Of a stretch of DNA of 64,000 nt, positions 18,899 to 64,000 are shown piece by piece (positions within the stretch are counted from its first letter, which is position 1; every line of letters begins with the position of its first letter). Source of the stretch: Paraburkholderia sp. Tr-20389 (GTDB lineage: Bacteria > Pseudomonadota > Gammaproteobacteria > Burkholderiales > Burkholderiaceae). A model generated the notes under the pieces. The model searched no databases and had not been told where the DNA came from. It saw only the letters and a program-made list of their open reading frames with translations. Where the stretch lies: positions 79,788 to 143,787 of the forward strand of contig NZ_JAAGPD010000027.1 in assembly GCF_017104565.1 (NCBI RefSeq), given 5' to 3'. The translations under genes were made by a program, and so were the position numbers.

Positions 18899-20836
18899 TT
18901 ACTTCCGCGCGCCGCGCAGTTCCGTCACGATCTGTTGCAGGCGCTCCGGCACCGCGTCGACCGGTTCGAGCGGCTCGCCGACAGCCAGCGTCAACCGGCT
19001 CATCACGCCTTTCTGAATCGGTCGCGGAAAGCGTGCATCCTCGTTGCGCGACCAGAAACTGCCCCACAGGCCGCGCAACGCGACCGGCACGACGGGCACG
19101 GGCTTGCGCCGCAAGATTTCCGTCACTCCACGCCGGAACGGATTCATGTCGCCGGTTTTGGTGAGCTTGCCTTCGGGAAAAATGCAGACGAGGTCGCCGT
19201 CTTCGAGCGCTTTCGCGCAGGCGTCATAGGCACGCGCGAGCAATGCGGGATCTTCGTGCGCGGGAGCAATTGGAATCGCCTTGGCGTGTCTGAACAGCCA
19301 TCCGACGAAGGGCGTGCGGAAAATCCGGTGATCCATCACGAAGCGGATCGGCCGCGGGCTTTCCGCCATGATGACGATGGCATCGACATAGCTCACGTGA
19401 TTGCACACCAGTACGGCCGCGCCTTCATCGGGGATGCGCTCCTCGTGAACGAGCCGGATCCGATAGAACGTGTGCACGAGCAGCCACGCGGCGAAGCGCA
19501 GCAGGAACTCGGGCACGAGCGAATAAATGTAGAGCGCGACGACCACGTTCAGCAGCGCCGTCACGAGGAACAGCCCCGGAATGCCGACGCCCGCCGACGT
19601 CAGCGCAACGGCCATCAGCGACGACACGATCATGAACAGCGAATTGAGGATATTGTTCGCCGCGATGATCCGCGCGCGATGGCTCGGCTGGCTGCGGCTC
19701 TGGATCAGCGCGTAGAGCGGCACGCTGTAAAAGCCGCCGAACATCGCGAGCAGGAACAGATCGGCAAGCACGCGCCAATGCGCGGGCCGTGCCATGAATT
19801 CGGCCACCGTCAGCAGATGCCCGGCGGCAGGCAACGCGTGGCTCGCAAAGAACAGATCGATCGCGAACACGCTGATGCCGATCGAGCCGAGCGGCACGAG
19901 GCCGATTTCGATGCGCTTCTTCGACAGCCGCTCGCACAGCAGCGACCCCGTACCGATGCCGATCGAAAACGTCGCGAGCAACACGGTGACGACGTCGGGA
20001 TTCGCGGACAGCACGTCCTTCGCAAAGCGGAAGAACGACGACAGAAACGTCGCGCCGACGAACCACAACCAGGAAATGCCGAGCAGACTCAAAAAGACCG
20101 CCCGGTTCTGGCGTGCGAGTTTCAGGTTGCGCCAGGTTTCGCTGATCGGGTTCCAGTTGATGCGCAGATCGGGTTGAGACGGTGTCGACGGCGGCACGAA
20201 GCCCGACGCCATCCGCCCGATGACGGCGATCGCCACGCAGCCGAAAGCCAGAATGGCCGCGCCATGCGCGTCCGAGCCCGCCGCCGCGCCGCCCATGATC
20301 GTGCCCAGCAGGATCGCGACGAAGGTGCCCATCTCGACCATGCCGTTGCCGCCGACCAGCTCCGATTGCTCCAGATGCTGCGGCAGATAGGCGTATTTGA
20401 CGGGACCGAACACCGTCGAATGAACGCCCATCAGGAAGGTGCACAGATACAGCAGCACCGCGTTGTGCAGCCAGAAGCCCGCGCCGCCCACCAGCATCAC
20501 GGCGATCTCGAAGGTCTTCACGAAGCGCGTGAGCATCGCCTTGTCGTACTTGTCGGCAATCTGACCGGAGGTGGCCGAGAACAGGACGAACGGCAAAATG
20601 AAGATCGCGGATATCAGAAAAGCTGCGGTATCCGCGTTGACGCCTGAGAAGCGCGCCGCCTGATACGTGACAAGCGACGTGAAGCCGATCTTGAACACGT
20701 TGTCGTTCATCGCGCCGAGAAACTGCGTCCAGAAGAACGGCGCGAAACGGCGCTCGCGCAACAGACGGAACTGCGAGCCGTGCTCGCGTGCGCTGCGCTT
20801 TGCGCGTTGGGCGGAGGACAACGGACGATCGCTCAT
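18899..20836 (-). CDS. LplT-like MFS transporter fused to PlsC-type acyltransferase
   Basis: A 645-residue, two-part membrane protein. Residues 1 to about 410 form an MFS transporter with the LplT-like N-terminus FAPFFWTQFLGAMNDNVFKI. Residues about 450-645 form a lysophospholipid/1-acylglycerol-phosphate acyltransferase, with catalytic NHVSYVD (His480, Asp485, the HX4D motif) and FPEG at 553-556. In enterobacteria a lysophospholipid flippase (LplT) and an acyltransferase-ligase (Aas) are separate. Here transport and reacylation are joined, suggesting recycling of lysophospholipids across the inner membrane. No acyl-ACP ligase domain is present, so the acyl donor must come from elsewhere. Confidence 0.9.
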   Translation of the reverse strand: MSDRPLSSAQRAKRSAREHGSQFRLLRERRFAPFFWTQFLGAMNDNVFKIGFTSLVTYQAARFSGVNADTAAFLISAIFILPFVLFSATSGQIADKYDKAMLTRFVKTFEIAVMLVGGAGFWLHNAVLLYLCTFLMGVHSTVFGPVKYAYLPQHLEQSELVGGNGMVEMGTFVAILLGTIMGGAAAGSDAHGAAILAFGCVAIAVIGRMASGFVPPSTPSQPDLRINWNPISETWRNLKLARQNRAVFLSLLGISWLWFVGATFLSSFFRFAKDVLSANPDVVTVLLATFSIGIGTGSLLCERLSKKRIEIGLVPLGSIGISVFAIDLFFASHALPAAGHLLTVAEFMARPAHWRVLADLFLLAMFGGFYSVPLYALIQSRSQPSHRARIIAANNILNSLFMIVSSLMAVALTSAGVGIPGLFLVTALLNVVVALYIYSLVPEFLLRFAAWLLVHTFYRIRLVHEERIPDEGAAVLVCNHVSYVDAIVIMAESPRPIRFVMDHRIFRTPFVGWLFRHAKAIPIAPAHEDPALLARAYDACAKALEDGDLVCIFPEGKLTKTGDMNPFRRGVTEILRRKPVPVVPVALRGLWGSFWSRNEDARFPRPIQKGVMSRLTLAVGEPLEPVDAVPERLQQIVTELRGARK

Positions 20837-34949: not shown

Positions 34950-35810
34950 ATGACTATCAGAAACATCATTGGATTTATCGCGACGGCCATTGTGTTCGTC
35001 GTCGCGATCCTGATCGGCCGTGCGCTGTGGGTGCACTACATGGACGAGCCGTGGACGCGCGACGGCCGCGTGCGCGCCGAGGTCGTCAACATTGCGCCGG
35101 ACGTATCGGGCGCGGTGGTCGAACTGCCGGTGCGCGACAACCAGTTCGTGCACAAGGGTGACCTGCTGATGCAGATCGACCCATCGCACTACCAGATCGC
35201 CGTCGAGCAGGCGCAGGCTGCCGTTGCCGCGCGCAAGGCCGAGTTGCAGATGCGGCGCGACGATGCGCAGCGTCGCGCGGATATGGACAGTCTGGTGGTG
35301 TCGAAGGAAAACCGCGAGAACGCGACGCATACCGCCTCGGCCGCCGAAGCGCAGTATCAGCAGGCGCTGGCCGCTTTGGATGCTGCGAAGCTGAACCTCG
35401 AGCGCACGCGGGTCGTGGCGCCCGTCGACGGCTACGTGACCAACCTGAACGTGTATCGCGGCGATTATGCGATTGCCGGGGCGGCGAAGCTGGCTGTGGT
35501 CGACAGCAACTCGTTCTGGGTTTATGGGTACTTCGAAGAGACGAAGCTGCCGCATGTGAAGATCGGCGACAAGGCCGATATCCGGCTGATGAGCGGCGGC
35601 ACGCTGAAGGGGCACGTCGAGAGTATTTCTCGCGGGATTTATGATCGCGATAATCCGCAGAGCCGGGAACTGCTTGCTGATGTGAATCCGACTTTCAACT
35701 GGGTGAGGTTGGCGCAGCGCGTGCCGGTGCGGGTGAAGATTGATTCTGTGCCTGACGGCGTGTTGTTGTCGGCTGGCACCACGTGTACCGTGGTGGTAAC
35801 GCCGTCATAA
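34950..35810 (+). CDS. HlyD-family periplasmic adaptor (AaeA-like)
   Basis: Membrane-fusion protein of 286 residues. One N-terminal membrane anchor (about 4-25) is followed by the biotinyl-lipoyl-like domain (AEVVNIAPDVSGAVVELPVR), a coiled-coil hairpin (about 80-140) and a second lipoyl half (ERTRVVAPVDGYVTNLNVYR) with a beta-barrel. It couples the FUSC pump to the outer-membrane lipoprotein. It is last in the operon; a repeat element (copy A) begins about 100 bp after its stop. Confidence 0.93.
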   Translation: MTIRNIIGFIATAIVFVVAILIGRALWVHYMDEPWTRDGRVRAEVVNIAPDVSGAVVELPVRDNQFVHKGDLLMQIDPSHYQIAVEQAQAAVAARKAELQMRRDDAQRRADMDSLVVSKENRENATHTASAAEAQYQQALAALDAAKLNLERTRVVAPVDGYVTNLNVYRGDYAIAGAAKLAVVDSNSFWVYGYFEETKLPHVKIGDKADIRLMSGGTLKGHVESISRGIYDRDNPQSRELLADVNPTFNWVRLAQRVPVRVKIDSVPDGVLLSAGTTCTVVVTPS

Positions 35811-35909
35811 CGGTTTTTTTGTCTGCGACGCGGCCTTGCCGGGTTTGGTCTTGGTTTTGGTTTTTGTTTTTGCTTTCGCTGGCATCCGCGATTTCATGTC
35901 GCTATTCAG

Positions 35910-36494
35910 GCGTTGCCCCTGTGCGGGGCGGCACTTACTTTCTTTGCCGCCGCAAAGAAAGTAAGCAAAGAAAGCGGGCTCACACCGCCAGCCCGTGTTG
36001 TTGCCTGCGGGCCCCCAACGGGTCCCGCACTCCATACGGCAACACGTTGTTTTGCGCCCGTTGCCAACGCCTTGAACCGGCGCATCACCCACTCCAGTCA
36101 CCCGTAGTACAGCCAGCGGCAGCGAACGGCTTGCGCTGCCCAGGTGGCAAACTATGTGTAGGTTGTCGCACCACGTGCGTTCGCGCTTCTACGACACCGA
36201 TCCCGCTTTTCAGTCCGGAGTGATGCACTTACGTCGCGATGGCCTACACACAGTTTGCCACCTGGGTGGCCGTGGACGTCTGGTAACGCGGTCCGCGTCG
36301 CGGGAGTGTGGAGTGGGTGATGCGTGCATTAGCACGTTGGCAGCGCGCGAAAACAAGTGCGTTGCCGCGTGAAGCGTAAGAACTGATGGGGGCCCGCAGG
36401 CAATTACACGGGCTGGCGGTGTGAGCCCGCTTTCTTTGCTTACTTTCTTTGCGGCGGCAAAGAAAGTAAGTGCCGCCCCGCACAGGGGCAACGC
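35910..36494 (+). repeat. Long palindromic intergenic repeat, copy A
   Basis: A 585-bp core that is almost one imperfect palindrome. The outer about 89 bp of each end are an exact inverted repeat, beginning GCGTTGCCCCTGTGCGGGGC. Each end contains its own 14-bp hairpin (CTTACTTTCTTTGC, CGCC, then the complement). Further inward the halves repeat CCTGCGGGCCCCCA, GCATCACCCACTCCA and CCCAGGTGGCAAACT in inverted order, flanking an asymmetric centre of about 80-90 nt (CGATCCCGCTTTTCAGTCCG). The left flank (35820-35905) has GTCTGCGACGCG, a G/T-rich stretch and CGCTGGCATCCGCG. It lies between the convergent HlyD and chemoreceptor genes. ORFs inside are palindrome artefacts. Confidence 0.9.
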
Positions 36495-36556
36495 CAGCAA
36501 ACCAGAAGCAAACCGCGGATGCCAGCGACAACACAGCGCGAATGCCAGCGAAACCC

Positions 36557-38221
36557 CTACCCCCGGAGGGAAAACTTGGCGACAGCAGCCTTCAAAGCAT
36601 GAGCCTGATCATCAAGAGCCCGAGCGGCGGCAGTAGCCTGCTCAACAAGAGCAGCATTCTGCTGGGTCCCAGCATCCATCTGCGACACAGCGAGATTGAT
36701 CTCTTCGATCCCCGAACTCTGCTCGGCGGAAGCAGCCGAGATCTCCCCCATGATGTCCGTCACCCGCTTCACGGCCTTGACGACTTCGTCCATGGTCTGC
36801 CCCGCGTCCTGCGCGAGCTGCGATCCGTTGCTCGCGCGCTCCACCGACGCGCTGATCAACCCCTTGATCTCCTTCGCGGCTGACGCGCTTCGCTGCGCAA
36901 GGTTGCGCACCTCGCCCGCCACCACCGAGAAGCCTCGCCCTTCCTCGCCGGCGCGCGCCGCTTCGACGGCGGCATTCAGCGCGAGAATGTTGGTCTGGAA
37001 GGCGATCCCTTCGATCACCCCGATGATGTCGCCGATGCTCTTCGCGCTGTCGTTGATCTGGCCCATCGTCGCGACCACGCGGCCAACCACGTCGCCGCCC
37101 TTCTCCGCGATCGCCGACGCGTTGTCGGCCAGCGTGCGCGCCTGCTTCGCGTTGTCCGCGTTCTGACGCACCGTCGATGTGAGCTCTTCCATGCTGCTCG
37201 CCGTCCGTTCGAGCGCCATCGCCTGCTGTTCGGTGCGTTGCGACAAATCGAGATTGCCCATCGAGATCTGCCCCGATGCAGCCGCGATGGCCTCGGCGCT
37301 CGACGCGATGTGCGCGACCGTCGACGACAGTCCGTTCTGCATGTCCCGCAGCGCCGACAGCATGCTCGAGTTGTCGCGCTTGCCGAGCACGATGTCGTTC
37401 GACAGATCGCCCGCCGCGATGCGGCTCGCGATTTCCTTCGCATACACGGGTTCGCCGCCGAGCTGCCGCGCCAGACGTCGCACGACCCACTCGCTGATCA
37501 CGAACGCGAGCACGATCAGCGCGACCGTCATCACGGCCATCATCACGAACGACGACTGATAGATGAACGACGATGCGTCGATGGTCGCCTTGGCCGCCTT
37601 GCCGCGCTGCGCGACGAGTTCGTCGACGAGCTTCTCGAGCTTGCCCGTTTCGACGAGCAACGAGACGTCCGTCGTGCCGACCTGCCAGTTCATCTGCGAC
37701 AGGTCGAGCGGTTGCGCCTTCACGAGCGTGACGAAATCGCGCAGATGGGCACTCCACACGCCGATCGCGTCAGCGAACTTCTTCTGCTGCGCGCCCGCTT
37801 CCGCGGAATCGGCATATTGCTGGAGTGTCTTGAGTTCGGCCGACAGACCCGTCAGCCCCGTGTCGATATCGGCGCCGAGTTCGTCGCGTTCCTTCGCGGT
37901 CGTCGCCGTCAACAGCATCTTCTGGGCGCGGCTCGCGCGCAGAAGATAGCCGCGCGCTTCCTCGGCAGCCCGGCTCGCGATGTGGCCCTGCTCGTAGATC
38001 GAGCGCATCTGCCCGTTCAGGCGGCTGATCTGCGCGAGCGAAAACACGCCGACTGCCAGCGTACCCACCAGCAATACCGCAAAGGCCAACCGCAAGGTCG
38101 TCTTCACGGACCGGCCGCGCAGCTTGACGCCCCGCTTGCCCGAATTCGCCGGCCCCCCGGCCGCTTCGCCATCCGGTACGAACCCCGCGCCCGGCTGGCC
38201 ACTCAGCGTAACTGCTTTCAT
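36557..38221 (-). CDS. Methyl-accepting chemotaxis protein
   Basis: A 554-residue chemoreceptor. Membrane segment 1 is at about 42-62 and the second at about 222-244, enclosing a four-helix-type periplasmic ligand domain (about 63-220). Then come a HAMP domain (about 245-300) and the cytoplasmic signalling hairpin (GRGFSVVAGEVRNLAQRSAS at its tip, QMDAGTQQNAALVEQATAAA near the end). It is the Tar/Tsr-like class. It starts 458 bp from the divergent MFS gene and ends 62 bp from repeat copy A. Its ligand is unknown, and no CheR/CheB or flagellar genes are nearby. Confidence 0.93.
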   Translation of the reverse strand: MKAVTLSGQPGAGFVPDGEAAGGPANSGKRGVKLRGRSVKTTLRLAFAVLLVGTLAVGVFSLAQISRLNGQMRSIYEQGHIASRAAEEARGYLLRASRAQKMLLTATTAKERDELGADIDTGLTGLSAELKTLQQYADSAEAGAQQKKFADAIGVWSAHLRDFVTLVKAQPLDLSQMNWQVGTTDVSLLVETGKLEKLVDELVAQRGKAAKATIDASSFIYQSSFVMMAVMTVALIVLAFVISEWVVRRLARQLGGEPVYAKEIASRIAAGDLSNDIVLGKRDNSSMLSALRDMQNGLSSTVAHIASSAEAIAAASGQISMGNLDLSQRTEQQAMALERTASSMEELTSTVRQNADNAKQARTLADNASAIAEKGGDVVGRVVATMGQINDSAKSIGDIIGVIEGIAFQTNILALNAAVEAARAGEEGRGFSVVAGEVRNLAQRSASAAKEIKGLISASVERASNGSQLAQDAGQTMDEVVKAVKRVTDIMGEISAASAEQSSGIEEINLAVSQMDAGTQQNAALVEQATAAARALDDQAHALKAAVAKFSLRG

Positions 38222-38679: not shown

Positions 38680-39930
38680 ATGGAAACCAGCCTCGACAAA
38701 GGCGCCCTGGCTGGCGCCGCTGCTTCAGCTTCCGCTCCGGCTGCTGCCAAGCCGCAAGCGAAGACCGTTTATTCGATTCTTGGCGCGATCAGCTTTTCGC
38801 ATCTGATGAACGACATGATCCAGTCGTTGATCCTTGCGATCTATCCGATGCTGAAGGCCAATTTTTCGCTGTCGTTCGGACAGATCGGCCTGATCACGCT
38901 GACGTACCAGATCACGGCATCGCTGCTGCAGCCGCTCGTCGGCATTTACACCGACAAGCATCCGAAGCCATATTCGCTGCCCGTCGGCATGGGCTTCACG
39001 TTGTCGGGTTTGCTGCTGATGTCGGTTGCGCCGAGTTTCGGCGTGTTGCTGATCGCGGCGGCGCTGGTCGGCTGCGGGTCGTCGGTATTTCACCCGGAGT
39101 CGTCGCGTGTCGCGCGCATGGCGTCGGGCGGCAAGCATGGGCTTGCGCAGTCGCTGTTCCAGGTGGGCGGCAACGCCGGATCGTCGCTTGGACCGCTGCT
39201 TGCCGCGCTGATCGTGATTCCGCATGGGCAACGCAGCATCGCGTGGTTCTCGGCGGCGGCGCTGGTCGGCATTCTCGTGCTGACGCACATCAGCCGCTGG
39301 TACAAGCACCATCCGGCGACGAAGAAGGCGCGCACGGCTCAGCCTGCGCACGCGACGCTGTCGCGCGGCAAGGTGGCATTCGCGATGAGTATTCTGGTGC
39401 TGCTGGTGTTCTCGAAGTACTTCTATCTGACGAGCATCAACAGCTACTTCACGTTCTATCTGATCGACAAGTTCCATCTGCCCGTGCAGGCTGCGCAGGT
39501 GCATCTGTTCGTGTTCCTTGCGGCGGTGGCGGCGGGCACGGTGATCGGCGGGCCGGTGGGCGACCGGATCGGCCGCAAGTACGTGATCTGGGTATCGATT
39601 TTGGGCGTCGCGCCTTTTACGCTGCTGTTGCCGTACGCGAACCTGTTCTGGACCGGCGTGCTGACGGTGATCATCGGGATCGTGCTGGCTTCTGCCTTTT
39701 CGGCGATTCTCGTGTATGCGCAGGAACTGATTCCTGGGAAGGTCGGGATGGTGGCCGGTCTGTTCTTCGGCTTTGCCTTCGGGCTTGGAGGTATCGGCGC
39801 TGCAGTGCTCGGGCAGCTGGCTGATGCCACCAGCATTCCTTATGTCTATAAGGTCTGCTCGTTCTTGCCGTTGCTCGGGGTTTTGACTGTTTTTCTGCCT
39901 GATATTGAAGGGAAGCGCGTTAAGGCTTGA
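38680..39930 (+). CDS. MFS transporter, Fsr (fosmidomycin resistance)-like
   Basis: A 416-residue, 12-segment major facilitator. The N-terminus after an Ala/Ser-rich tail reads SILGAISFSHLMNDMIQSLI, the signature of the Fsr subfamily, followed by GCGSSVFHPESSRVARMASG and GGNAGSSLGPLLAALI. The middle loop (about 205-225) is basic and the C-terminal half has GPVGDRIGRKYVIWVSI. Fsr exports fosmidomycin in E. coli; the natural substrate is unknown. It stands alone and is followed at once by repeat copy B. Confidence 0.9.
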   Translation: METSLDKGALAGAAASASAPAAAKPQAKTVYSILGAISFSHLMNDMIQSLILAIYPMLKANFSLSFGQIGLITLTYQITASLLQPLVGIYTDKHPKPYSLPVGMGFTLSGLLLMSVAPSFGVLLIAAALVGCGSSVFHPESSRVARMASGGKHGLAQSLFQVGGNAGSSLGPLLAALIVIPHGQRSIAWFSAAALVGILVLTHISRWYKHHPATKKARTAQPAHATLSRGKVAFAMSILVLLVFSKYFYLTSINSYFTFYLIDKFHLPVQAAQVHLFVFLAAVAAGTVIGGPVGDRIGRKYVIWVSILGVAPFTLLLPYANLFWTGVLTVIIGIVLASAFSAILVYAQELIPGKVGMVAGLFFGFAFGLGGIGAAVLGQLADATSIPYVYKVCSFLPLLGVLTVFLPDIEGKRVKA

Positions 39931-40045
39931 TGTGTTTGTCTGCGACGCAGTCGCCGGTTTGGTTTTTTTTGCTGGCGGGCGCCTTTTGTTCGCTGGCATC
40001 CGCGGTTTCCGGCGCTGGCATCCGCGTTTTGCTTCTGGTTTGCTG

Positions 40046-40629
40046 GCGTTGCCCCTGTGCGGGGCGGCACTTACTTTCTTTGCCGCCGCAAAGAAAGTAA
40101 GCAAAGAAAGCGGGCTCACACCGCCAGCCCGTGTTGTTGCCTGCGGGTCCCCAACGGGTCCCGCACTCCATACGGCAACACGTTGTTTTGCGCCCGTTGC
40201 CAACGCCTCGAACCGGCGCATCACCCACTCCAGTCACCCGCAGGCAGCCAGCGGCAGCGACCCGTCCGCGCCGCCCAGGTGGCAAACTATGTGTAGGTTG
40301 TTGCACCGTACGCGTTCGCGCTCGTACGACACCGATCCCGCTTTTCAGTCCGGAGTGGTGCATTTGCGTCGAGACGGCCTACACACCGTTTGCCACCTGG
40401 GCGGCCGTGGACGTCTGGTAACGCGGTCCGCGTCGCGGGAGTGTGGAGTGGGTGATGCGTGCCTTAGCACGTTGGCAACGCGCGAAAGCAAGCGCGTTGC
40501 CGCCTGAAGCGTAAGAACTGTTGGGGGCCCGCAGGCAACAACAAGCACTGACGGGGTTAGCCCGCTTTCTTTGCTTACTTTCTTTGCGGCGGCAAAGAAA
40601 GTAAGTGCCGCCCCGCACAGGGGCAACGC
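40046..40629 (+). repeat. Long palindromic intergenic repeat, copy B (with both outer flanks)
   Basis: A 584-bp core in the same orientation as copy A. The terminal inverted repeats match exactly for 71 bp, then diverge for about 17 bp and match again through the TGCGGG...CCCCAAC block. The inner inverted blocks and the central asymmetric loop are conserved. This copy has outer marks on both sides, GTCTGCGACGCAG at 39938-39950 and its inverted counterpart GTCGCAGAC at 40706-40714, so the full unit is about 785 bp (39935-40720). CGCTGGCATCCGCG occurs twice on the left, once inverted on the right. It lies between two genes on the same strand (MFS, prpE), so it is not confined to convergent gaps. 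Confidence 0.9.
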
Positions 40630-40837: not shown

Positions 40838-42751
40838 ATGACCCCCTACCGCGAGTTCCACCGCCGCTCGATCGAATCCCCAGAAGACTTCTGGCGCGAA
40901 CAGGCCAACCGGATCCACTGGGAAACCAGATTCGACACAGTCCTCGACCGCTCGAATCCGCCGTTTGCGCGCTGGTTCGTCGGCGGCAGGACGAACCTCT
41001 GCCACAACGCCGTCGACCGCCATCTCGCGGAACGCGCACAGCAGAACGCACTCATCTACGTGTCGACGGAAACCGGCATCGAGCGGCGTTACACCTACGC
41101 CGAACTCCACGCGGAAGTGAACCGGATGGCAGCCGTGATGCGCTCGCTCGGCGTCAAGCGCAGCGACCGCGTGCTGATCTATCTCCCGATGATCCCCGAA
41201 GCCGTCTTCGCGATGCTCGCGTGCGCGCGTCTCGGCGCGATCCACTCGGTCGTGTTCGGCGGCTTTGCCGCGCCCAATCTCGCCGCACGTATCGACGACG
41301 CGAAGCCCATGCTGATCGTGACGGCCGACGCAGGCGCGCGCGCCGGCAAGGTGATCGACTACACGCCGCTCGTCGACGAAGCAATGTCGCGCGCGACGCA
41401 CAAGACGCCGCACGTGCTGCTGATCGACCGTCAGTTGACGCCCGAGCGTCTGAACGCGCCATATCTCGTCGCATACGAACCGCTGCGCGAGCAGTTCTTC
41501 GACGCGCACGTGCAATGCGAATGGCTCGAATCGACGGAACCTTCGTACGTGCTCTACACGTCGGGCACGACGGGCAAGCCGAAAGGCGTGCAGCGCGACG
41601 TCGGCGGCTATGCCGTGGCGCTCGCAGCATCGATGGAATACATCTTCCAGGGCAAACCGGGCGACACGATGTTCACCGCCTCCGACGTCGGCTGGGTCGT
41701 CGGTCACAGCTACATCGTCTACGCGCCGCTGATCGCCGGTCTCACGACGGTCATGTACGAAGGCACGCCCATCCGTCCCGACGGCGGTATCTGGTGGCGG
41801 CTCGTCGAACAATACAAGATCAATCTGATGTTTACCGCGCCGACAGCGATCCGCGTACTGAAGAAGCAGGACCCCGCACTGCTCAAACAGGCCGATCTGT
41901 CGAGCCTGCGCACGCTGTTTCTCGCAGGCGAACCGCTCGACGAACCGACGGCATCATGGATCGCCGACTCGCTCGGCAAGCCCGTCGTCGACAACTTCTG
42001 GCAGACGGAAACCGGCTGGCCGATTCTCGCGATCCAGCGCGGCGTCGAAGCGCTGCCGCAAAAGCTCGGCTCGCCCGGTGTGCCCTGCTACGGCTACGAC
42101 CTGACGCTGCGCAACGAGCACACGGGCGAGCCGTGCCCACCCGGCGAAAAAGGCGTGATCACGCTCGGCTATCCGTTGCCGCCCGGTTGCATGTCGACCG
42201 TCTGGGGCGACGATCAGCGCTTCGTGAAGACGTATTGGGAAAGCGTGCCGAACCAGCAGGTCTATTCGACGTTCGACTGGGGCATTCAGGATGAGGACGG
42301 TTACGTGACGATCCTCGGCCGCACCGACGACGTGATCAACGTCGCGGGCCATCGCCTCGGCACGCGCGAAATCGAGGAAGCGCTGTCAGGTCACAAGGCA
42401 GTGGCCGAAGTGGCCGTGGTCGGTGTGACGGATCAAGTGAAAGGTCAGGCGGCGATTGCGTTCGTCGTCGTGCGCGATGCCGCTGCGTACGATTCCGACG
42501 ACGCGCGCGCGAAGCTGTCCGCCGAACTGTGCGCGACCGTCGACCGTCAACTCGGCGCAATCGCGCGGCCCGCGCATGTGGTGCTGGTGTCGATGCTGCC
42601 GAAGACGCGCTCCGGCAAGCTGTTGCGCCGCGCGATCGCGGCGCTCGCAGAAGGACGCGACCCGGGCGATCTGCCGACTATCGAAGATCCGTCGGCGTTA
42701 CAGCAGATTCGTGAGGCCGTGGCGTCGTCCGTCGGCGTACGCGGCGGCTGA
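40838..42751 (+). CDS. prpE: Propionate--CoA ligase
   Basis: Acyl-CoA synthetase of the acetyl/propionyl-CoA class, 637 residues; activates propionate via an acyl-adenylate. The N-terminus (YREFHRRSIESPEDFWREQA) and the P-loop-like YTSGTTGKPKGVQRDVGGYA are the PrpE pattern. The C-terminal domain ends with the acetylatable lysine motif PKTRSGKLLRRAI. The start at 40838 is preferred to an in-frame ATG 96 nt upstream. That longer N-terminus would extend into the outer flank of repeat copy B. The rest of a prp operon (prpB, prpC, acnD) is not adjacent. Confidence 0.93.
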   Translation: MTPYREFHRRSIESPEDFWREQANRIHWETRFDTVLDRSNPPFARWFVGGRTNLCHNAVDRHLAERAQQNALIYVSTETGIERRYTYAELHAEVNRMAAVMRSLGVKRSDRVLIYLPMIPEAVFAMLACARLGAIHSVVFGGFAAPNLAARIDDAKPMLIVTADAGARAGKVIDYTPLVDEAMSRATHKTPHVLLIDRQLTPERLNAPYLVAYEPLREQFFDAHVQCEWLESTEPSYVLYTSGTTGKPKGVQRDVGGYAVALAASMEYIFQGKPGDTMFTASDVGWVVGHSYIVYAPLIAGLTTVMYEGTPIRPDGGIWWRLVEQYKINLMFTAPTAIRVLKKQDPALLKQADLSSLRTLFLAGEPLDEPTASWIADSLGKPVVDNFWQTETGWPILAIQRGVEALPQKLGSPGVPCYGYDLTLRNEHTGEPCPPGEKGVITLGYPLPPGCMSTVWGDDQRFVKTYWESVPNQQVYSTFDWGIQDEDGYVTILGRTDDVINVAGHRLGTREIEEALSGHKAVAEVAVVGVTDQVKGQAAIAFVVVRDAAAYDSDDARAKLSAELCATVDRQLGAIARPAHVVLVSMLPKTRSGKLLRRAIAALAEGRDPGDLPTIEDPSALQQIREAVASSVGVRGG

Positions 42752-50088: not shown

Positions 50089-50120
50089 AGCCGTCGTGTC
50101 TGCGACGGCTTTTTCTTTTT
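50089..50120 (+). terminator. Intrinsic terminator after galU
   Basis: AGCCGTCG and CGACGGCT form an 8-bp stem with a 6-nt loop (TGTCTG), followed by a T-rich run. A second small stem (GCGGGC/GCCCGC, 50049-50071) precedes it. The loop and stem contain GTCTGCGAC, the same outer mark that borders the palindromic repeats. Confidence 0.85.
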
Positions 50121-50213
50121 TGGGTTTGGTTTGGTTTTGGGTTTGGGTTTGGTTTTGGGTTTGGGTTTGGGTTTGGGTTTGGGTTTGGGTTTGGGTTTGG
50201 GTTTGTTCGCTGG
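50117..50213 (+). repeat. Telomere-like GGGTTT microsatellite
   Basis: A G/T-rich tract on the plus strand, with eight consecutive perfect GGGTTT units (50157-50204) preceded by looser GGTTTT/GGGTTT units. In total there are 11 GGG runs, enough for more than two G-quadruplexes. It lies in the outer flank of palindromic repeat copy C. The reverse complement is read as a Lys-Pro-rich frame, which is an artefact of the hexamer. Confidence 0.9.
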
Positions 50214-50240: not shown

Positions 50241-50825
50241 GCGTTGCCCCTGTGCGGGGCGGCACTTACTTTCTTTGCCGCCGCAAAGAAAGTAAGCAAA
50301 GAAAGCGGACTAACACCGCCAGTGCTACTTGTTGCCTGCGGGCCCCCAACAGTTCTTACGCTTCAGGCGGTAACGCACTTGTTTTCGCGCGTTGCCAACG
50401 CGCTAAGGCACGCATCACCCACTCCACACTCCCGCGACGCGGACCGCGTCACCAGACGTCCACGGCCGCCCAGGTGGCAAACTGTGTGTAGGCCATCGTG
50501 ACGGAAGTGCACCACTCCGGACTGAAAAGCGGGATCGGTGTCGTAGGAGCGCGAACGCATACGGTGCGACAACCTACACACAGTTTGCCACCTGGGCGGC
50601 GCAAACCGTTCGCTGCCGCTGGCTGCGCTACGGGTGACTGGAGTGGGTGATGCGCCTGTTCGAGGCGCTGGCAACGGGCGCAAAACAAAGTGTTGCCGAG
50701 TGGAGTGCGGGACCCGTTGGGGGCCCGCAGGCAAGAACATGGGCTGGCGGTGTTAGCCCGCTTTCTTTGCTTACTTTCTTTGCGGCGGCAAAGAAAGTAA
50801 GTGCCGCCCCGCACAGGGGCAACGC
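50241..50825 (-). repeat. Long palindromic intergenic repeat, copy C (inverted orientation)
   Basis: A 585-bp core, the same family as copies A and B but reversed, judged from the asymmetric centre (here CGGACTGAAAAGCGGGATCG, the reverse complement of the others). Terminal inverted repeats match for 68 bp before the first mismatch. The right flank has the inverted outer mark (GTCGCAGAC near 50925-50933); the left flank holds the galU terminator and the GGGTTT tract. It lies between the convergent galU and TusA-like genes. Its right flank matches the left flank of copy D closely. Confidence 0.9.
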
Positions 50826-55541: not shown

Positions 55542-55723
55542 CCGACTTAACTCTTCAGCCAGTACGCGGTACCGGGCGCGCCAGCATCGCGCGACCCCGG
55601 CGGCCCTTTGCACGCCGTTTTGTGCAGAATCAGCCGCCATCGTCGGGTGCCCCGACCGCGACATTTAAGGCTTCCTACGCGACTCTCGCCACTCTAACGA
55701 GTGAACCGCCAAAGAAGCTAACC
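55542..55723 (+). other. Spacer between binding-protein gene and tandem repeats
   Basis: About 180 bp after the stop of the binding-protein gene; no gene or clear terminator is seen. It runs into the 54-bp repeats, so the operon appears to continue as one transcript through structured RNA. Confidence 0.4.
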
Positions 55724-56046
55724 GCACTGACGTGCGCAGGACTTAGTAAGCGCTGAAGCGCAAACTCGGGTCGACCGCACTGACGTGCATGGGACCCGAG
55801 TAAGCGCTGAAGCGCAAACTCGGATCGACCGCACTGACGTGCATGGGACCCGAGTAAGCGCTGAAGCGCAAACTCGGGTCGACCGCACTGACGTGCATGG
55901 GACCCGAGTAAGCGCTGAAGCGCAAACTCGGGTCGACCGCACTGACGTGCATGGGACCCGAGTAAGCGCTGAAGCGCAAACTCGGGTCGACCGCACTGAC
56001 GTGCATGGGACCCGAGTAAGCGCTGAAGCGCAAACTCGGGTCGACA
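55724..56046 (+). repeat. 54-bp tandem hairpin repeat inside the inositol transporter operon
   Basis: A 54-bp unit starts at 55747, 55801, 55855, 55909, 55963 and 56017 (the last truncated), preceded by a degenerate partial copy. Apart from one base change the copies look identical. Each full unit folds into a nested hairpin: CTCGGGTC pairs with GACCCGAG, and inside it GCAC-TGAC-GTGC pairs. Units are joined by TAAGCGCTGAAGCGCAAA. The unit length is a multiple of three and lacks stops in the frame of the permease, but no ribosome-binding site supports translation. The array sits between the binding-protein and permease genes. Confidence 0.95.
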
Positions 56047-56057
56047 CAGGAGACATC

Positions 56058-57224
56058 ATGGGCGTAGCCGGCAAACACTATCCATCGCATGGTCACGACG
56101 CGAAGGGCAACGACGCACAACCTTCGCAGCCGGCAACGGCATCCGACGAGCGCATCCGCAAGGAGTCGTTCTTCGGGCATGTGCTGAACAGGCCGGAATT
56201 CGCCGCGATCTCCGGCACCGTGCTGGTGTTCCTCATATTCGCGATCAGCGCGGGCGGCTCCGGCATGTTCGCTCTCGACGGCGTGATGAACTGGTCGCAG
56301 GTCTCCGCCTATCTCGGCATTCTTGCCGTCGGCGCGTGTCTGCTGATGATCGCCGGCGAGTTCGATCTCTCCATCGGCTCGATGATCGGCTTCGCGGGCA
56401 TGATGGTCGCGATACCCGCCGTCTACTTTCACTGGCCGATCTGGGCATCCATCATCTTCGCGTTCGCCGGCTCGATGGCGCTCGGCGCGCTGAACGGCTA
56501 CCTCGTGATGCGCACGCGTCTGCCGTCGTTCATCGTGACGCTCGCGTTCCTCTTCATTCTGCGCGGCCTGACGCTCGCCCTCTCGATCATGGTGGCGGAC
56601 CGCACGATCATCTCCGGTGTCGGCGATCTCGCCCAGTCCGATGCGGTGACCAACTTCCTGTTCCATGGTGTCGCGTTGCACGGCCTCTTCACGAGCCTCG
56701 CGCACATGGGCGTCGGCACGCTGCTCGACAACGGCCAGCCGCTCGTGCCGGGCATTCCGAAAGTGCTGCTGTGGTGGTTCGCACTGGCCGCCGTCGCTGC
56801 GTTCGTCCTCGCGAAGACGCGCTACGGCAACTGGATGCTCGCTGTCGGCGGCGATGCGAATGCCGCGAAGAACGTCGGCGTGCCTGTGCGTCGCGTGAAG
56901 ATCTCGCTGTTCGTGCTGACGGCCTTCTGCTCGTGCCTGTTCGCCGTACTGCAAGTGTGCGACATCGGCTCCGCTGCCGCCGACCGCGGTCTGCAAAAGG
57001 AATTCGAGGCAATCATCGCCGCGGTGATCGGCGGCACGCTGCTGACGGGCGGTTATGGATCCGTGGTGGGCGCCTGCTTCGGCGCGCTGATCTTCGGCGT
57101 CGTGCAGATCGGCATCACCTATACGAATGTCAGTTCCGACTGGTTCCGCGTGTTCCTCGGCGTGATGCTGCTGATCGCGGTGCTCTTCAATCACTATGTG
57201 CGCCGCCGCGTCGCGCAATCGTAA
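56058..57224 (+). CDS. Inositol/sugar ABC transporter permease (RbsC family)
   Basis: A 388-residue membrane subunit with about ten segments. GEFDLSIGSMIGFAGMMVA (about 103-121) and the conserved cytoplasmic loop (VGGDANAAKNVGVPVRRVKI) are the RbsC pattern. A long polar N-terminus (about 1-45) precedes the first segment. The ATG at 56058 has AGGAGA 5 nt upstream. The same frame is open leftward through the tandem repeat for 91 more codons, but no ribosome-binding site supports an earlier start. It pairs with the downstream ATPase. Confidence 0.93.
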   Translation: MGVAGKHYPSHGHDAKGNDAQPSQPATASDERIRKESFFGHVLNRPEFAAISGTVLVFLIFAISAGGSGMFALDGVMNWSQVSAYLGILAVGACLLMIAGEFDLSIGSMIGFAGMMVAIPAVYFHWPIWASIIFAFAGSMALGALNGYLVMRTRLPSFIVTLAFLFILRGLTLALSIMVADRTIISGVGDLAQSDAVTNFLFHGVALHGLFTSLAHMGVGTLLDNGQPLVPGIPKVLLWWFALAAVAAFVLAKTRYGNWMLAVGGDANAAKNVGVPVRRVKISLFVLTAFCSCLFAVLQVCDIGSAAADRGLQKEFEAIIAAVIGGTLLTGGYGSVVGACFGALIFGVVQIGITYTNVSSDWFRVFLGVMLLIAVLFNHYVRRRVAQS

Positions 57225-63909: not shown

Positions 63910-64000
63910 GCGTTGCCCCTGTGCGGGGCGGCACTTACTTTCTTTGCCGCCGCAAAGAAAGTAAGCAAAGAAAGCGGGCTAACACCGCCAGCCCATGTTC
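63910..64000 (+). repeat. Long palindromic intergenic repeat, copy D (cut by window end)
   Basis: The first 91 bp of a fourth copy, starting GCGTTGCCCCTGTGCGGGGC in plus orientation and including the 14-bp end hairpin. Its left flank carries TTTTTTTGTCTGCGACGCAG near 63789-63808, a G/T-rich stretch and CGCTGGCGTCCGCG. This flank is nearly the reverse complement of the right flank of copy C. It follows iolB. Confidence 0.9.

Follow-up and report, generated by a model that had tools for sequence, protein, structure and literature searches.

The window analysed here, a stretch of 64,000 nucleotides from Paraburkholderia sp. Tr-20389 (G000:C21:79788-143787), contains several intergenic copies of a near-palindrome of about 585 bp. 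Long palindromes are regarded as unstable in bacteria; here, scores to hundreds of them per genome persist at sites common to species. The copies of 585, 584 and 585 bp that the initial annotation placed at 35910, 40046 and 50241, and the partial one at 63910, were reproduced in coordinates, lengths and inverted repeats (89, 71 and 68 bp; Table 1), copy 4 being incomplete because the contig stops at the end of the window. Copy 1 lies between convergent genes, and copy 2 between the 3' end of one gene and the 5' end of another. Elsewhere the window holds a match to the Rfam Bcj11 Burkholderia RNA (20009-20130, minus strand, 74.4 bits) and a tandem repeat with a 54-bp period (55691-56099; six overlapping matches up to 99 % alike) that overlaps long ORFs.

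Table 1. Features at the palindromic elements of the window (toward gene, 3' end adjoining a copy; away gene, 5' end facing a copy)
Feature	Position	Strand	Remarks
Element core, copy 1	35910..36494	+	585 bp near-palindrome, exact terminal inverted repeat 89 bp
Element core, copy 2	40046..40629	+	584 bp, exact terminal inverted repeat 71 bp
Element core, copy 3	50241..50825	-	585 bp, exact terminal inverted repeat 68 bp, polarity opposite to copies 1 and 2
Element core, copy 4	63910..64000	.	cut off by contig end
Toward gene, copy 1	34950..35810	+	third-position footprint part of pooled set
Toward gene, copy 1	36557..38221	-	
Toward gene, copy 2	38680..39930	+	G005 orthologue has empty site
Away gene, copy 2	40838..42751	+	acetyl-CoA-synthetase-like
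Inward module GCTGGCATCCGCG, left of copy 1	35878..35890	+	sequence
Inward module GCTGGCATCCGCG, right of copy 1	36514..36526	-	sequence
Variable ~19-nt stretch, left of copy 1	35891..35909	+	
Variable ~19-nt stretch, right of copy 1	36495..36513	-	near-same sequence left of copy 2
Outer module GTCTGCGACGCAGTCGC, left of copy 2	39938..39954	+	
Low-complexity (GGGTTT)n-type T/G tract pointing at copy 3	50111..50212	+	

The family proved to be genome-wide, with at least 40 full-length copies of at least 87 % identity (40 of 157 candidates were scored) in the strain's own genome (9.0 Mb, 129 contigs), where the 32-bp arm palindrome gave 146 matches against 0 control matches. The related Paraburkholderia that the initial annotation had also proposed to search carry it too: 32 of 60 genomes (counting the strain's own) contained a match, including 29 of the 35 others from the genus. 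In G001, 176 left arms and 176 right arms were counted, with no mismatch to the arm pattern in 100 of 100 among the matches listed. Among the matches listed, the whole core was common to G020 (up to 86 % identity) and G001 (up to 80 %), with G005 and G021 at about 70 %, and the others listed shared mostly the end (~80–90 bp, 95–100 % identity). Carriers identified by name include Burkholderia sp. Ac-20365 and Paraburkholderia sp. C35. A stricter arm pattern was present in 71 of 398 genomes of the bacterial family (3 of 25 genera). Fifteen plasmid records also matched: seven from Paraburkholderia (P. caribensis, P. largidicola, strains PGU19 and 22B1P) cover 80 % or more of the query, and those of P. 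phymatum, P. terrae and Caballeronia contain parts of it; the plasmid matches coincide with no listed feature (the gene table is incomplete and one record is unannotated). No record of the phage collection matches the element. The initial annotation had recognised no published name, and the libraries searched returned no match to a known class; a search of the PMC open literature, with subscription papers and preprints outside its range, found no description of this family, and PMC7186790 holds nothing on palindromic, repeat or intergenic elements beyond a CRISPR reference. Regular chromosomal spacing was rejected, the coefficient for 71 positions on G001 C1 (two estimated from one arm; CV 1.02) being inside the random range. 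None of the 70 spacings was below 3 kb (random 1–9), and 11 were of 7.5–10.7 kb (random 1–9; band picked post hoc).

The sites are old. Anchored by their flanks, 11 of 11 own sites were occupied in G020 (three with a ~1.2-kb insert, one shortened) and nine of 10 in G001 (one interrupted), one further own element being not anchorable in G020 and two in G001. Flanking sequence at shared sites was 84–94 % identical, and with positions conserved across species the data do not support current mobility of the non-autonomous mobile element suggested initially. Empty sites occur in G005 and G022, plus one site each in G001 and own/G020. The sequence of the copies does not follow the sites. Identity was 90.7 % within the own genome (150 of 435 pairs from the top-scoring 30 copies, a set biased upward), 84.2 % within G001 (150 of 1378 pairs, selected by position) and 78.2 % between the two (150 of 1590 pairs); copies at three orthologous sites were 75.4, 77.2 and 76.9 % identical, not above non-orthologous pairs. 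Similarity is thus greater among the copies of one genome than between copies at orthologous sites, as in concerted evolution, and core polarity was flipped in four of five orthologous comparisons, of which two were own/G020 and three own/G001; seven G001 copies at other places proved difficult to orient. This suggests that copies overwrite one another in place, for which gene conversion appears to be the best explanation. Local conversion by neighbouring copies was discarded as a rule, since the relation of half-element similarity to distance (P 0.02 for facing pairs within 15 kb) was confined to the own genome and proximity had no effect in G001.

Exchange between copies also bears on the palindromic structure. 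Folded as RNA, the element has a minimum free energy of -443.5 kcal/mol, whereas shuffled sequences averaged -242.6 (z -30.8) and none of 100 reached so low a value. The match between the inner arms is imperfect, with an average identity of 74 % between the half-elements within a copy (29 own elements, terminal 85 bp and centre excluded), and 98.2 % of cells pair in the consensus structure of an alignment of 40 copies that spans four genomes (17 own, 19 G001, three G020 and one G005, author-chosen from 87 collected). Of the 144 pairs, 22 contained double changes; shuffling gave an expectation of 13, and slid partners gave 6–13. Seven pairs (columns 24, 55, 61, 62 and 65–67) contain 125 of the 170 double-changed cells and correspond to two arm alleles, which can be mixed within single copies (L021, L024, L030). 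Judged from the alignment, these alleles move as blocks, and gene conversion would account for the double changes as well as selection on structure; with 125 of 170 cells reduced to two block-exchanged alleles, the double changes are no proof of selection on pairing. Pairing is conserved, and for the double changes the selection on structure put forward initially has an equal rival. The lack of coding capacity held, as 0 of 7 ORFs overlapping elements had a Pfam match above cut-off (best E 0.052). No Rfam family was matched by the element at gathering threshold, and both ends of the element weakly resembled RF02421 Bp1_684 (27.9 and 25 bits; gathering score 44), which leaves the structured RNA of the initial annotation with sub-threshold support from Rfam.

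The full unit is larger than the 584–585-bp core to which the initial description, accurate for the core, was confined. Outside the core lie, on both sides, a variable stretch of ~19 nt and an inward GCTGGCATCCGCG, followed by T/G-rich low-complexity DNA and often GTCTGCGACGCAGTCGC. Over six whole contigs (815 kb of the own genome), a two-arm definition gave 29 full elements, with lone or broken arms (e.g. C47:71149) and two contig-end copies excluded; GTTGCCCCTGTGCGGGGC was unedited at 58 of their 58 ends, and the core between those ends measured 580–586 bp. In the same 815 kb this terminal hairpin (up to two mismatches) occurred 65 times, 64 of them within 350 bp of an element and one at a degenerate copy. 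The flank modules are almost as confined to element neighbourhoods: 81 of the 89 GCTGGCATCCGCG-like matches (up to one mismatch) were intergenic and eight inside called genes, and 80 of the 81 lay within 350 bp of an element, the 81st at a degenerate copy. In its first five letters and its orientation GCTGGCATCCGCG agrees with the E. coli Chi octamer GCTGGTGG, and the inward modules may steer resection. The tract pointing at copy 3 could form a G-quadruplex, and (TTTTGG)n or (GCTTTT)n tracts occur in some flanks of other elements.

In the window, the variable flank to the right of each copy resembles the flank to the left of the next in three of three intervals (scores 30, 40 and 36 of 40, equalled by 7.9, 0 and 0.4 % of random pairs). 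An excess was found for facing pairs across the own genome (24 pairs, mean 22.6 vs 17.9 random, P 0.00045); in G001 such pairs were no better than random (46 pairs, P 0.44), and facing-flank 'barcodes' were rejected as a general rule. The left and right flanks of one element were more alike than random (G001, n=53, P 0.0025; own genome, n=29, mean 24.2 vs 17.9), and same-side flanks of neighbouring elements in G001 were slightly raised (P 0.02 and 0.04).

Elements are mostly located 60–150 bp 3' of stop codons, often between convergent genes. Both neighbours were called for 48 of 51 tabulated own elements (26 convergent, 18 co-directional, four divergent), compared with 47 convergent and 99 divergent among 321 gaps of 100 bp or more overall, those with elements counted in. 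In G001, 46 of the 53 elements read were classifiable (36 convergent, 10 co-directional, 0 divergent) and the stop-to-core distance was 59–151 bp in 63 of 86, elements without a recognisable end or partner arm having been dropped. Strict classical terminators were found between stop and core at three of 32 own and five of 78 G001 gene ends, and at 39 of 108 convergent and 34 of 206 co-directional element-free ends; at sites empty in a relative, seven of eight tested genome-sites (six sites) held one. The element therefore occupies the place of a former terminator and replaces the ordinary terminator at occupied sites. An intrinsic terminator (GC-rich stem, then T tract) was present in 0 of 29 cases within the core's first 60 nt (left side, strict test). 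A permissive test was replaced by the strict one because it hardly separated shuffled T-rich flanks (27 of 32 passing) from real ones (29 of 32).

When filled and empty orthologues were placed side by side, gene ends beside elements were poorer in C, and this first hint led to a two-sided footprint: for ~1 kb on either side, the strand with its 3' end directed at the element is depleted in C and enriched in T and G. At third positions in the last 99 nt of toward genes (n=169: own 73, G001 71, G020 17, G005 8; earlier sets comprised 24 own, then three genomes), C was.166 compared with.383 in controls and T was.325 compared with.122, a bias that relaxes over ~900 nt. Away genes (n=70) show the mirror image, with fewer G and more A and C; an effect of transcription would bias their coding strand in the direction seen in toward genes. 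As a check against miscalled antisense ORFs, 35 of 36 own away ORFs (one spans two stretches) were scanned with Pfam; a domain (E <=1e-8) was present in 31, and dropping the four without a domain, one transposase and one doubtful start left 29. Their first 99 nt had A.145 (control.099), C.498 (.422), G.279 (.345) and T.077 (.133), and their A+C-G-T skew over 300 nt was.248 with a control maximum of.099 in 5000 draws (P 0.0002). In the away gene of copy 2, the first 100 codons have A3.14, C3.55, G3.27 and T3.04. This mirror indicates that the affected strand is set by the element and not by transcription. The away-gene effect is smaller than the toward-gene effect and has no clean gradient, the skew persisting at 600–900 nt (.129 vs -.026 control, P 0.0005); 16 own away genes were A-rich also when binned from their stops, and part of the skew may be a property of those genes.

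Measured without gene calls, the 3'-pointing strand was G/T-rich to ~1 kb around 92 elements in the own genome, G001, G020 and G005. The skew threshold was exceeded on both sides of 60 elements, on the left only of 14, on the right only of 14 and on neither side of four, compared with 1.7 % (both sides) and 10.6 % (one side) of 3000 random points. Convergent gene pairs with an element were skewed on both sides in 10 of 14 cases and on one side in three; for element-free convergent pairs the numbers were 0 of 60 and eight. Of nine same-genus loci with a different interior, each from another genome and showing two or more arms (those showing a single arm were not judgeable), eight exceeded 0.1 on both sides and the ninth had 0.094 and 0.109. 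Third positions in paired orthologues were pooled over 14 partly overlapping comparisons, some of which share genes, on the assumption that empty sites are ancestral and filled ones derived; C>T outnumbered T>C by 196 to 42, A>G outnumbered G>A by 47 to 17 and C>G outnumbered G>C by 110 to 69. Composition was normal in the G005 orthologues at empty sites (C3.36–.40, T3.10–.13), as it was at site 2 of G022 (T3 8, C3 41 of 100 codons). At site 1 of G022 (L127), another insert (transposase-like by eye) is present and no element was detected, yet T3 was 44 and C3 16 of 100 codons; this is possibly the ghost footprint of a lost element, and a footprint may outlive its element. The 'chromosome-organisation site' of the initial annotation is too vague for these data, and it foresaw neither the footprint nor the concerted evolution.

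The pattern is thus secure: long palindromes between genes form a family whose sites are old, whose copies evolve in concert and whose flanks bear a two-sided footprint. Its best explanation, to which an even chance is given, is that hairpins provoke recurrent two-ended breaks, which expose 3' strands and are repaired from other copies. Under this model, a long interrupted palindrome sits behind a gene end in place of an ordinary terminator; during replication one strand would fold into a long hairpin, and the site would be cut or collapse into a two-ended break. Resection of the 5' strands would leave the 3'-ended strand single for up to ~1 kb on each side, and homologous recombination would repair the break with the sister or any other copy as template. 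Repair from other copies would produce the concerted evolution and polarity flips, and the arm-end hairpins would now terminate transcription. C-to-T together with A-to-G on one strand is the mark of deamination of single-stranded DNA, and C-to-G fits abasic-site repair. The footprint would fall on the 3'-pointing strand on both sides because 5' to 3' resection of a two-ended break leaves that strand. The wider picture of resident bacterial DNA 'living by being broken', in which palindromes go through recurrent cycles of folding, cutting and rebuilding from one another that keep the family uniform and let it flip in place, exposed 3' strands leave a kilobase-scale two-sided deamination gradient, GCTGGCATCCGCG may steer resection and the footprint may outlive the element, is offered tentatively, at somewhat less than even chance.

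An experimental precedent exists in E. coli, where an interrupted palindrome forms a lagging-strand hairpin and leads to breaks repaired by homologous recombination (PMC4245961). Two RecB-type proteins above cut-off indicate that recB is present in the own genome. SbcC and SbcD were not found there above curated cut-offs (SbcD 52.4 of 77.65 bits; SbcC 26.7 of 478.5). Only eight (SbcD) and one (SbcC) of 14 control genomes pass these cut-offs, and the result therefore means no E. coli-type SbcCD, not absence of such a nuclease; a divergent Mre11/Rad50-like pair is encoded at C24:83 kb. Weak cutting may be the reason that the palindromes survive, and the absence of SbcCD could instead mean that they are tolerated uncut.

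The elements with skew on one side only (28 of 92) or on neither (4 of 92) count against breaks as the cause, as do the smaller, ungraded effect in away genes and, in G001, the failure of proximity to raise half-element similarity and the lack of facing-flank identity. The one-sided elements fit with fork arrest without a break, in which the hairpin would stall forks arriving from either side, the lagging-strand template would remain exposed until restart, and recombinational restart would homogenise the copies. Long palindromes stall replication, and the strand predicted to be exposed is the 3'-pointing strand observed. However, each site is replicated mostly in one direction, so a one-sided footprint would be expected at elements that are two-sided in 60 of 92 cases, and fork arrest is considered unlikely. 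A two-way transcription terminator, whose end hairpins would stop converging transcripts while stalled polymerases and R-loops make the footprint, would explain the location after stop codons, the convergent context, the scarcity of strict terminators at element-side ends compared with element-free convergent ends, and the classical terminators at empty sites. It meets difficulty in the away genes, where an R-loop would expose the coding strand too and the opposite strand is affected, and in the lack of a classical terminator in the core's first 60 nt. A terminator role alongside the break model is likely; as the cause of the footprint, termination is unlikely, and the explanation as a whole appears less probable still than fork arrest.

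The recent spread of a non-autonomous, MITE-like mobile element would account for dispersed copies with sharp bounds and for the empty sites, and the element carries the terminal inverted repeats expected of MITEs. This is improbable given how many anchored sites are common to species with similar flanks, and no target duplication was noticed by eye at empty sites, where the flanks round the core are also replaced; an ancient spread is possible. Least credible is a family of structured small or regulatory RNAs: an extreme fold, conserved pairing and the resemblance of both ends to Bp1_684 speak for it, but no match reaches the gathering score and a two-sided footprint in DNA is not predicted, making it very improbable.

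REP/BIME sequences and RAYT-mobilised REPs are intergenic, palindromic, often located after stop codons and present in many copies per genome, with a length of ~20–40 bp. The element resembles them in position and copy number; unlike REPs, it is a single 585-bp near-palindrome with an end motif constant at all 58 ends read, and its short terminal hairpin unit was not found free-standing, as REP-like singlets or pairs, in the 815 kb. One weak Y1_Tnp match (26.6 bits) was the outcome of a check for RAYT proteins in the genome. MITE-like bacterial repeats (Correia/NEMIS, RUP, ERIC and the enterobacterial RU-1 to RU-3) share terminal inverted repeats, intergenic location and lack of coding, whereas the element has a much longer palindrome, cross-species sites, concerted evolution and the two-sided footprint. 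Engineered interrupted palindromes in the E. coli chromosome (85–480 bp; PMC4245961, PMC3315005) are alike in size class and hairpin potential, and their breaks are repaired by recombination, the process proposed here. Those palindromes, as described there, sit in an SbcCD host, whereas the element is natural, occurs in scores per genome and resides in a genome with no E. coli-type SbcCD above cut-offs.

If the break reading is true, the elements would document, naturally and in many replicates, the places and distances at which single strands become exposed in repair, in a form readable from sequence alone; both concerted evolution by recombination and the cost of break repair in mutations could be tested at many matched sites with empty orthologues as controls. 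Codon-usage and gene-calling methods may mislead near gene ends in the Paraburkholderia-related group.

Some single loci have further features. At G000:C128:140223-140469, beside the element at C128:140511, the core's terminal 31 bp are matched four times in tandem at a spacing of 72 bp. Own element L339 has a DDE_Tnp_1 transposase gene 50 bp off. The ~1.2-kb inserts of G020, transposase-like by eye, are in the C1 elements near 1358600, 2026800 and 2063100 (L110, L297, L299); the junctions read place them within the arm palindrome, at its CTTA/GTAAG end or next to it, and an insertion sequence may use the arms as landing sites.
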